The notes under the pieces are model-generated. The model had not been told where the DNA came from. It searched no databases and saw only the letters and a list, made by a program, of their open reading frames with translations. The translations under genes and the position numbers were made by a program. A DNA stretch of 64,000 bases, taken from the NCBI RefSeq assembly GCF_007990545.2, contig NZ_AP019829.2, forward strand, positions 1,550,001-1,614,000, written 5' to 3'. The stretch comes from Leptotrichia wadei. GTDB lineage: Bacteria > Fusobacteriota > Fusobacteriia > Fusobacteriales > Leptotrichiaceae. Each line of letters opens with the position of its first letter. The first letter of the stretch is position 1. Shown piece by piece: positions 45,452-49,105 of the stretch.

Positions 45452-45859
45452 ATGGAACTTAAGGATATTCAAGAATTGATGAAAGTTCTGAAAAAAGAAG
45501 ATATAGCAGAACTAAAAGTAAGATATGGAAAAATAAAACTTACTTTAACAAATTCTGAAAATACAAAAATTGTAAATACTGCAGCAGCATCACCTAAAAT
45601 TATAAAAGAGAAAAAAAATATCAAAGCTGTATTGCCAGTTGAAGAAATTGTTAAATCAAGTAACGTGGGCAAAATAAAGCTAATAAGTTCAAAAAGTGGA
45701 ACTTCAGTAAAAAAGGGTCAAATTCTTGCAAAAATTAACACAATGGGAATTGACAATGATGTAAAATCTACTGTAAATGGAATTTTAAAGGAAGTGCTTG
45801 TGGCAGATGGTTCAGCAGTTGATTTTGCAAAAGAATTATTTAAAATTGAAGTCAATTAA
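45452..45859 (+). CDS. accB: AccB-like biotin/lipoyl-domain protein lacking the biotin lysine
   Basis: A 135-residue protein with the layout of acetyl-CoA carboxylase BCCP: N-terminal helix (KDIQELMKVLKKEDIAELKV), flexible linker, and a C-terminal biotinyl fold (SGTSVKKGQILAKI, then STVNGILKEVLVADGSAV). Where the canonical EAMKM stands, residues 96-100 read NTMGI; the codon for the modified lysine is GGA, glycine 99. The protein as read cannot be biotinylated at the standard site. AGGAGG precedes the ATG and accC follows by 85 bp. A separate true BCCP elsewhere, or a non-carboxylase role, is possible. Confidence 0.8.
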   Translation: MELKDIQELMKVLKKEDIAELKVRYGKIKLTLTNSENTKIVNTAAASPKIIKEKKNIKAVLPVEEIVKSSNVGKIKLISSKSGTSVKKGQILAKINTMGIDNDVKSTVNGILKEVLVADGSAVDFAKELFKIEVN

Positions 45860-45944: not shown

Positions 45945-47300
45945 ATGTTTAAAAAAATATTAATAGCAAATAGAGGGGAAATTGCTGTTAGGATAATCAG
46001 AGCAGCAAGAGAATTGGGAGTTGCAACAGTTGCAGTTTATTCAGAAGCTGATAAGGATTCACTTCACGTAAGATTGGCTGATGAAGCTATTTGTATTGGA
46101 ACTGCCAACAGTGCAGATTCATATTTAAAAATACCAAATATTATTTCAGCGGCACAAATCACACAAAGTGAAGCAATCCATCCAGGATACGGTTTTCTAT
46201 CTGAAAATCAAAGATTTGCCGAAATATGTGACAAAAATGGAATTGTATTTATCGGTCCAAAACCTGAATTAATAAATATGATGGGGGATAAGGCAACTGC
46301 AAGGGAAACTGCCATCAAACATAAAGTTCCAATAACAAAAGGATCAGACGGAATTGTGCCAACTCTGGAAGAAGCAAAAAAAGTTGCAGAATGGATAACT
46401 TATCCTGTTATGATAAAAGCTACTGCCGGTGGTGGTGGAAAAGGAATGAGAATTGCACGTGATGAAAAGGAATTAGCCGAAAATTATATTGTTGCACAAA
46501 ACGAAGCAAAAGCAAATTTTGGAAATCCAGATGTTTATATTGAAAAATATGTTGAAGAACCAAGACATGTTGAAATTCAAATTATAGGAGATAAATTTGG
46601 AAATGTTGTCCATCTTGGTGAAAGAGATTGTACAATTCAAAGAAGACATCAAAAATTAATTGAAGAATCTCCATCAGCAGGAATTGATGCCAAAACACGT
46701 GAAAAAATGGGGAAATTTGCTGCAAAATTAGCAAAAGGTATCGGTTACGATAGTGTTGGAACATTAGAATTTCTTGTTGACAAAAGTATGAATTTCTATT
46801 TTATGGAAATGAATACAAGAATTCAAGTTGAACATACAGTAAGCGAAGAAATTACTGGAGTTGATCTAGTAAAAGAACAAATAAGAGTAGCTGCAGGAGA
46901 AAAATTAAGTATTTCTCAAAAAGATATACATATTAATGGACACGTAATTGAATGTAGAATAAATGCAGAAGATTCTGAAAATGGATTTTTACCATCTTCG
47001 GGAATTTTAGAAACATATATTCCATCTGGAGGAATTGGAGTAAGAATTGACTCACATTCCTATCAAAATTATGAAATTCCGCCCTATTATGATTCGATGA
47101 TAGCAAAACTTATCGTAAAGGGAAAAGATCGGGAAGAAGCTATTTCACGTATGAAACGTGCCTTGAAGGAATTTATCATAGAAGGTGTAGATACAACTAT
47201 TCCTTTCCATTTAAAAGTACTTGATAATGAAGACTTTAAAAAAGGAACTGTTTATACAAATTTTATTGAAACTCACTTTAAGGAAGCTCTTGGAAAGTAA
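45945..47300 (+). CDS. accC: biotin carboxylase subunit of acetyl-CoA carboxylase
   Basis: A 451-residue ATP-grasp enzyme. The N-terminus is ILIANRGEIAVRIIRAAREL; the ATP-binding glycine loop is KATAGGGGKGMRIARDE; the active-site region is MEMNTRIQVEHTVSE. It carboxylates biotin on BCCP using bicarbonate and ATP. TAGGAGGATAG precedes the ATG. It is intact, in contrast to the altered carrier protein encoded just upstream. accA and accD are not in the window. Confidence 0.96.
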   Translation: MFKKILIANRGEIAVRIIRAARELGVATVAVYSEADKDSLHVRLADEAICIGTANSADSYLKIPNIISAAQITQSEAIHPGYGFLSENQRFAEICDKNGIVFIGPKPELINMMGDKATARETAIKHKVPITKGSDGIVPTLEEAKKVAEWITYPVMIKATAGGGGKGMRIARDEKELAENYIVAQNEAKANFGNPDVYIEKYVEEPRHVEIQIIGDKFGNVVHLGERDCTIQRRHQKLIEESPSAGIDAKTREKMGKFAAKLAKGIGYDSVGTLEFLVDKSMNFYFMEMNTRIQVEHTVSEEITGVDLVKEQIRVAAGEKLSISQKDIHINGHVIECRINAEDSENGFLPSSGILETYIPSGGIGVRIDSHSYQNYEIPPYYDSMIAKLIVKGKDREEAISRMKRALKEFIIEGVDTTIPFHLKVLDNEDFKKGTVYTNFIETHFKEALGK

Positions 47301-47415: not shown

Positions 47416-47811
47416 ATGAACGAATTAGGAAATGTAAATATATCACAAGAAGTGGTAGCAACAATCGCAGAATCAGTAGTATCAGAAATCGAAGGAGTAA
47501 ACAGCCTTGTTGGTGGAACTTCAAAAAATGAAATTGTTAAATTTTTCCAAAATGTATCTTCAGGTGGTAAAGGAATTGAAGTAGAAGTTGGCGAAACTGA
47601 ATGTACATTAGATCTTTACATTGTAGCCAAAATGGGATATAAATTACCAGCATTAGCTGGAGAAATTCAAACAAAAGTAGTAAAAGCAATTACTGAAATG
47701 ACAGGACTAAAAGTTCAAGAAGTTAATGTGTATATTCAAAAGATTGTAAAAGATGAAAAGAAAGATGTAGCCCCAGTTACTGTAGCAGAAACAGCAGAAA
47801 TTGAAGAGTAA
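47416..47811 (+). CDS. Asp23/Gls24 family envelope stress protein
   Basis: A 131-residue protein of the Asp23/Gls24 family: GNVNISQEVVATIAESVVSE at the start, then VEVEVGETECTLDLYIVAKM. These small proteins are abundant at the membrane in Gram-positives and linked to alkaline and envelope stress. The next gene encodes a probable AmaP membrane anchor, supporting the call. AGGAGG precedes the ATG. Confidence 0.92.
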   Translation: MNELGNVNISQEVVATIAESVVSEIEGVNSLVGGTSKNEIVKFFQNVSSGGKGIEVEVGETECTLDLYIVAKMGYKLPALAGEIQTKVVKAITEMTGLKVQEVNVYIQKIVKDEKKDVAPVTVAETAEIEE

Positions 47812-47996: not shown

Positions 47997-48686
47997 ATGA
48001 TTGCAATATTGGGATTTTTAGCAAGGTTATCTGTGATACTTGGATTTATCGGTATTGCATTTTCAAGTATATCAGACACTTTGTTTAGAACCGATTATTT
48101 AGGACAGCTTGATAATTTTATAGATTTAAGCAGTTTAAATTTCAAAATTTTAATCGGACTGTTATCAATAATTTATTTAGTCATATTTTTACTTTCTTAC
48201 ATTAACAAACTTACAAAATATTCTCAAAATAGAAAAGTAAAAAATAAAAATGGAGAAATCGAAGTTTCAATTAAAACAATAAATGAAACATCAAAAAGTT
48301 TTTTAAATTCAGTGGAAATTATAAAAAATTCAAAAGTAAAGTCATATCCAAAAGGAAGATCAGTTGTTATTGAAGCTACTGTTGATACCTACAATGTTGA
48401 TAACTTAAATGAAAAATTAATAGAAATTCAAAACAAATTATCCGAATATATTTTCCATTCTACTGGAATTACTGTAAAAAAAAGTAAAGTTAAGTTAAAA
48501 AAAGTTTTAGGTGAAACAATTATTGAAAAAAAAATCATTGATTCTCCAGCTGTTCAAAAGGAAATTGAAAAAGGACAAGAAAAAGTAACGGAAAAATCAA
48601 AAGTTGAAATGAATAAAAACAATGATAAAACCGTAAAAAATGATAATACAAAAATTGAAACTTCCCCATCTGGAAAGGAAAATTAA
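47997..48686 (+). CDS. amaP: AmaP-like membrane anchor for Asp23
   Basis: A 229-residue protein with two N-terminal membrane helices (about residues 4-24 and 48-68) followed by an Asp23-like domain (KSYPKGRSVVIEATVDTYNV) and a lysine-rich tail. This fits AmaP, the membrane anchor of Asp23. An in-frame stop is directly before the ATG, and no Shine-Dalgarno is seen; a perfect TATAAT lies at 47934-47939, so an internal promoter is likely. Its last base overlaps the nusB start. Confidence 0.8.
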   Translation: MIAILGFLARLSVILGFIGIAFSSISDTLFRTDYLGQLDNFIDLSSLNFKILIGLLSIIYLVIFLLSYINKLTKYSQNRKVKNKNGEIEVSIKTINETSKSFLNSVEIIKNSKVKSYPKGRSVVIEATVDTYNVDNLNEKLIEIQNKLSEYIFHSTGITVKKSKVKLKKVLGETIIEKKIIDSPAVQKEIEKGQEKVTEKSKVEMNKNNDKTVKNDNTKIETSPSGKEN

Positions 48687-49105
48687 TGACACGAAGAGGA
48701 ATTAGAGAAGAAATATTTAAATTACTTTTTGAATATGAGCTAATTGACAATAATATTGAAAAAAGAATAAATGACGTGATTGAAAAAGAAAATTTAAAAA
48801 AAGAAGATGAAATTGATTTTTTAAGAAGTTATGTAACTGACATAATTGCAAATGAAGATATTTTAATTGGAAGGATAAAAGATGTGTTAGAAGGTTGGAC
48901 TTATGAACGTCTTGGAACGATCGAAAAGGTCTTGCTAAAAATATCTTTTTATGAAATCACTATAAAAAAAATTGGATATGAAATTGCGATTAACGAAGTT
49001 TTAGAAATTTCCAAAAAGTATTCCTACAACGATACAAAAGATTTTTTGAATGGAATTTTAGCAAAATTAATAAAAAATATTAAAGAAGGAAAAAGTAACT
49101 TCTAA
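48686..49105 (+). CDS. nusB: transcription antitermination factor NusB
   Basis: A 139-residue all-helical protein beginning TRRGIREEIFKLLFEYELID and including the NusB-type YEIAINEVLEISKKYS. NusB binds boxA RNA with S10 for rRNA antitermination. The start overlaps the amaP stop (TAATG), so the two are coupled; Asp23/AmaP-NusB neighbourhoods also occur in Firmicutes. Confidence 0.93.
   Translation: MTRRGIREEIFKLLFEYELIDNNIEKRINDVIEKENLKKEDEIDFLRSYVTDIIANEDILIGRIKDVLEGWTYERLGTIEKVLLKISFYEITIKKIGYEIAINEVLEISKKYSYNDTKDFLNGILAKLIKNIKEGKSNF

Follow-up and report, generated by a model that had tools for sequence, protein, structure and literature searches.

What can a homologue of the biotin carboxyl carrier protein (BCCP, AccB) do next to the gene of a biotin carboxylase when it has no lysine to which biotin could be attached? 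The question is raised by a gene in a stretch of 64,000 nucleotides from Leptotrichia wadei (contig NZ_AP019829.2, positions 1,550,001 to 1,614,000; hereafter the window), which lies directly upstream of accC. The initial annotation of this locus had considered a scaffold, a regulator of AccC, or a relic left after another BCCP took over. Here, the protein is compared with its relatives within and outside the phylum Fusobacteriota, and its possible roles are weighed.

A BCCP Homologue without the Biotinyl Lysine

The gene (positions 45,452–45,859, forward strand) encodes a protein of 135 aa, here called AccB-G. Its Biotin_lipoyl domain (PF00364) covers residues 69–132 with an E value of 3.4e-10, and the family profile aligns with E. 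coli AccB (4hr7_B) over the full length (positions 1–136, E 3e-17), placing the E. coli motif EAMKM opposite the family consensus ETIGV. In AccB-G, residues 96–100 read NTMGI, preceded by GQILAKI and followed by DNDVKSTVNG, and are encoded by AAC (45,737–45,739), ACA (45,740–45,742), ATG (45,743–45,745), GGA (45,746–45,748) and ATT (45,749–45,751). The codon GGA, for Gly99, stands at the position of the biotinyl lysine. The replacement and its residue numbers had been read correctly in the initial annotation, while the start given there, 45,740, falls one codon late.

The AlphaFold model of the single chain (mean pLDDT 74.8, pTM 0.45) consists of an N-terminal helix, a disordered linker and a beta domain. 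The N-terminal module (45,452–45,550) comprises helix 3–15 and strands 20–25 and 28–33 and aligns with 4hr7_B from profile position 1; we take it to be the counterpart of the AccB N-terminal region. It is followed by a variable linker (45,551–45,634), which is predicted to be disordered, with pLDDT below 50 at residues 37–49 and 52–57. The biotinyl-like domain (residues 62–135; 45,635–45,856) has pLDDT values of 78–89 by block, and residues 98–99 form the turn linking strands 91–97 and 100–105. Its PDB neighbours in a Foldseek search are BCCP and other biotinyl domains. In the window's family, however, alignment with the lysine-type paralogues shows a thumb shortened by 7 columns relative to lysine-type BCCPs; the view that the rest of the fold and the N-terminal helix are intact is thus correct for the core and for the N-terminal module, though not for the thumb.

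AccB-G shares with bacterial AccB/BCCP (TIGR00531; E. coli 4hr7, 1bdo) the N-terminal module, the linker, the biotinyl/lipoyl-type fold and the place before accC. Unlike these proteins, it has no lysine in an EAMKM turn, has an altered or shortened thumb and scores 49.6 bits against the AccB equivalog profile, below the curated cut-off of 115.2. Judged from its sequence, AccB-G should be unable to carry biotin at the canonical site.

The next gene, accC (45,945–47,300, forward), encodes a biotin carboxylase of 451 aa, the sole AccC of the genome. It had been described as intact, which agrees with its active-site motifs and its TIGR00514 score (736.7 bits; cut-off 626.5). It is followed on the same strand by an asp23-family gene in a YqhY-like position (47,416–47,811; PF03780, E 4.9e-25), by amaP, encoding a protein like the Asp23 membrane anchor (47,997–48,686; NF033218, 77 bits with a cut-off of 55), and by nusB, which ends the conserved cluster (48,686–49,105; PF01029, E 2.7e-20). 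A scan for promoters and terminators gave signals at chance level only.

The Carrier and the Other Subunits of Acetyl-CoA Carboxylase

Four proteins of the L. wadei genome match Biotin_lipoyl above the cut-off, AccB-G being one of them. The second is an AccB of 159 aa with the motif EAMKL, encoded downstream of folD (L115:4902-5381; at or near C1:207901-208380 of the genome) and scoring 137.9 bits against TIGR00531 (cut-off 115.2). The third, a carrier of 127 aa with EAMKM, belongs to a cluster of the oxaloacetate decarboxylase type, after which comes a biotin ligase (TIGR00121); the fourth is a frame of 590 aa. The genome further encodes one stand-alone AccC, one AccD and one AccA, so that the second BCCP, accA, accD and biotin ligase gene for which the initial annotation had advised a search are all present. 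Because the folD-linked AccB, the single AccC, AccD and AccA are found together, the cell appears, by gene content, to have a complete acetyl-CoA carboxylase (ACCase) with another gene providing the carrier. The real carrier would be the folD-linked AccB, which supports the earlier suggestion that another BCCP took over this role.

Of the 81 AccC-bearing species of the phylum (see below), 79 have a second AccB with a TIGR00531 score of 87 bits or more, the two others being assemblies of 82% completeness; all the second AccBs that were read, a subset of the 79, have EAMKL or EAMKM. In three genomes, G095 (L113:1942-3771), G096 (L114:590-2428) and G225 (L194), a full-length AccB with EAMKL or EAMKV forms the C-terminus of a pyruvate carboxylase B/oxaloacetate decarboxylase-type protein. 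Since an ACT-type (PheB-like) gene precedes the fusion in G095 and G096 and also precedes the separate AccB in several relatives, the fused and separate forms may be related by fusion or fission.

Additional copies were also observed. G007, G008, G013 and G015, which belong to one genus, and G076 carry an additional accC as well as a third AccB, which has the lysine (e.g., L112:3286-3702, L110, L111, L109). In that genus the extra copies adjoin genes resembling those of KipI/KipA-type (5-oxoprolinase or allophanate hydrolase-like) proteins and a transporter, and in G076 the second accB adjoins the second accC. These copies were possibly acquired.

Conservation of AccB-G in Fusobacteriota

In a sample of 98 species genomes of the phylum, AccC was counted when it was stand-alone and above the TIGR00514 cut-off, which applied to 81 species. 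AccB-G is present in the same 81 species, always directly upstream of accC and with an open reading frame, and is absent from all 17 genomes without AccC. The lysine position holds Gly in every one of the 81, as the initial annotation had anticipated for a real role; the opposite outcome that it had named, AMKM in all relatives, is clearly not what the alignment holds. With 81 species in agreement, a sequencing error as the source of Gly99 was rejected.

Only G73, G99 and G110 are fully invariant. Most other columns vary, the mean column identity being 38% and the identity to distant relatives 21–36%. Gly99 is flanked by hydrophobic residues in the 81 sequences (I, M, V or L before; I, V, L or, once, T after), and in the N-terminal module E20 is kept in 77 species and K29 in 75. 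Among close relatives dN/dS of AccB-G is mostly 0.11–0.21, with one pair at 0.44 at a very low dS of 0.08, compared with 0.01–0.05 for AccC. AccB-G is under purifying selection, and its constraint is looser than that of AccC.

The surroundings are conserved as well. At 57 loci outside the window's family, AccB-G stands directly before accC in all, mostly with a gap of 0–40 bp, and asp23, amaP (where recognisable; it is unrecognised in some species) and nusB come after accC as far as the contigs reach, giving the order accB(G)-accC-asp23-amaP-nusB.

Two groups of genomes differ in their set of subunits. Nine genomes of the window's family (G001, G018, G019, G027-G032) have no AccA, AccC, AccD or AccB-G, which suggests the loss of the initiation of fatty acid synthesis by the ACCase route. 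Three genomes of genus g14 (G048, G049 and G050, of which two reach 99% completeness) contain accA and accD above the cut-off; AccC and AccB were not found above it, the BCCP matches being weak (52–59 bits).

Lysine-Less AccB in Other Phyla

Of the 388 genomes covered by the outside survey, about 300 came from other phyla, and the best 40 outside matches were read. Among these, AccB next to accC mostly has EAMK or EALK. In G306, of another phylum, an AccB adjoining accC has Gly at the lysine position (DCMGM), and the same holds for G287 (DSLGI); G225 has Asn (EAMNI), and accC was not seen on the stretch examined. AccD was not found in the G306 genome, for which reason the lysine-less AccB may there be the partner of another carboxylase. 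G287 and G161 belong to a group of the Elusimicrobia lineage. The AccB linked to accC differs between families there, one having Gly and others Asn or Lys (ESMK), and many of these genomes have a second AccB with EAMK elsewhere. The idea that lysine-less AccB is limited to Fusobacteriota was thus rejected.

Loci of the Elusimicrobia-type phylum (L218, L219, L220, L221, L228) include possible intermediates in the loss of the biotin site: the AccB linked to accC reads ESMK in some genomes, but ESMN or ETMN in others closely related to them. A further protein, L203 (G206:C5:6851-7273), is a second AccB-like protein with KAMN for EAMK; it lies away from accC and on a very long branch.

In the tree, the Gly type and the Lys type of Fusobacteriota each form one supported group (SH-aLRT 99 and 97). 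Both groups include the class-level outlier G097, and the pair is therefore older than the radiation of the phylum. Parsimony on a quick tree, which is short of columns, requires at least 7 changes at the lysine position. AU tests on the column-poor tree rejected neither a clade of the Fusobacteriota Gly and Lys types nor a clade of the Fusobacteriota and Elusimicrobia Gly types, nor a grouping of almost all lysine-less sequences into one clade (p 0.086).

Possible Roles of AccB-G

Of the roles considered, that of an AccC-bound, non-catalytic subunit which assembles or tunes ACCase is preferred, at a probability of roughly 0.6. AccB-G would be made together with AccC and would remain attached to it as a non-biotinylated subunit; the conserved AccB surfaces would let it bind AccC and probably the biotinylated AccB as well. 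AccB-G may either stabilise the AccC-AccB subcomplex or compete with charged AccB for AccC, and would in this way set ACCase activity. The same complex is probably the target of Asp23 and AmaP, which the cluster also encodes. Support for this role comes from the absent lysine, the EAMKL carrier elsewhere, the one-to-one co-occurrence and adjacency with accC, the invariance of Gly99, purifying selection, and the retained fold and N-terminal module. Against it stand the higher dN/dS compared with AccC, the failure to find AccD in G306 and the shortened thumb in the window's family, since the thumb is implicated in BADC contact on BCCP (PMC11926652).

Plant BADCs are BCCP homologues without the biotinylation motif, which bind both BC and BCCP and either help ACCase assemble or inhibit it (PMC11926652; PMC7712654); they have been called unique to plants (PMC11926652, a 2025 paper). 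Like a BADC, AccB-G is a BCCP homologue without the biotinylation lysine, found in a genome that also has a lysine BCCP and a heteromeric ACCase with separate BC, BCCP and CT subunits. Unlike the plant proteins, AccB-G is bacterial and fixed directly upstream of accC. Another comparison is offered by the AccE/epsilon subunits, which are not known to be BCCP homologues. These are the small non-catalytic "glue" of the biotin carboxylase complex in actinobacterial acyl-CoA carboxylases (PMC11926652), a property shared with the role proposed for AccB-G. The accB-accC-yqhY operon of B. subtilis has the same order as the Fusobacteriota cluster, accB-accC-asp23, but its AccB is a normal carrier, whereas the AccB at the same place in the phylum is not. 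In B. subtilis YqhY restrains ACCase, and its loss selects mutations in ACCase subunits, which suggests a hyperactive enzyme (PMC5437119); the action suggested above for Asp23 and AmaP would resemble that of YqhY.

The same neighbours allow a spatial reading, in which AccB-G, with Asp23 and the AmaP membrane anchor, localises AccC and placement matters more than the tuning of activity. Both genes belong to the conserved cluster, and plants use other small proteins to dock their ACCase to the envelope (PMC7712654). However, Firmicutes with a normal AccB also have asp23 after accBC (PMC5437119), so that AccB-G is not singled out, and AmaP is not recognised in some species; we regard this reading as unlikely. 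It is similarly doubtful, and if anything a little more so, that AccB-G is a constant docking partner for carriers acting in trans, by which the single AccC would serve both AccB, for acetyl-CoA carboxylase, and the AccB fused to PycB, for pyruvate carboxylase. G095 and G096, which both possess accA, accD and just one AccC, indeed have their sole strong lysine AccB fused to the pyruvate carboxylase B-type protein, and G225 has the same fusion with a lysine-less AccB, but the fusion occurs in few genomes and most have an ordinary separate AccB.

A decaying relic, that is, an ancestral AccB which has been drifting ever since the takeover by the folD-linked AccB cost it its function, is very improbable. 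The lysine carrier elsewhere in the genome, the eroded thumb and linker of the window's family and the low identity to distant relatives would fit it, but relaxed selection or broken frames in relatives, by which a relic would be known, are not what was found: the gene occurs in exactly those genomes that have accC, its frame is open and Gly99 invariant throughout, dN/dS is low, and the state predates the radiation of the phylum, as both paralogue groups include G097. Biotin ligases need a lysine located in the hairpin turn, and although many members have lysines near the site (+2 in 37/81, +6 in 53/81), a shifted biotin lysine was rejected and a carrier modified at another residue is scarcely credible, for the hairpin has no conserved lysine position, 26/81 have no lysine within 5 residues and 10/81 have none from -5 to +8. 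Among the explanations first offered for the locus, a scaffold or regulator thus appears, from sequence comparison, to be the best remaining reading of AccB-G.

Implications for Fusobacteriota and Beyond

Beyond the window, the balance leans modestly toward a wider pattern: throughout the phylum, and in certain members of at least two or three other lineages, AccC may have an obligate partner in a dedicated non-biotinylated AccB, a BADC-type subunit that arose from AccB, has a fixed Gly or Asn at the lysine position and assembles or restrains ACCase together with Asp23/AmaP. A lysine-less AccB in Fusobacteria was not found reported in the open-licence literature, and an earlier report elsewhere is possible.

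In bacteria, where deletions are feasible, AccB-G would then provide a counterpart to the plant BADCs, which have been reported both as glue and as inhibitors. Moreover, the transition from a carrier to a non-catalytic subunit may be open to view in the Elusimicrobia-type relatives, in which this position is Lys, Asn or Gly. Within the phylum itself, it would be a mistake for annotation, metabolic models or drug-target work to take the gene next to accC for the carrier, which is instead the folD-linked copy.
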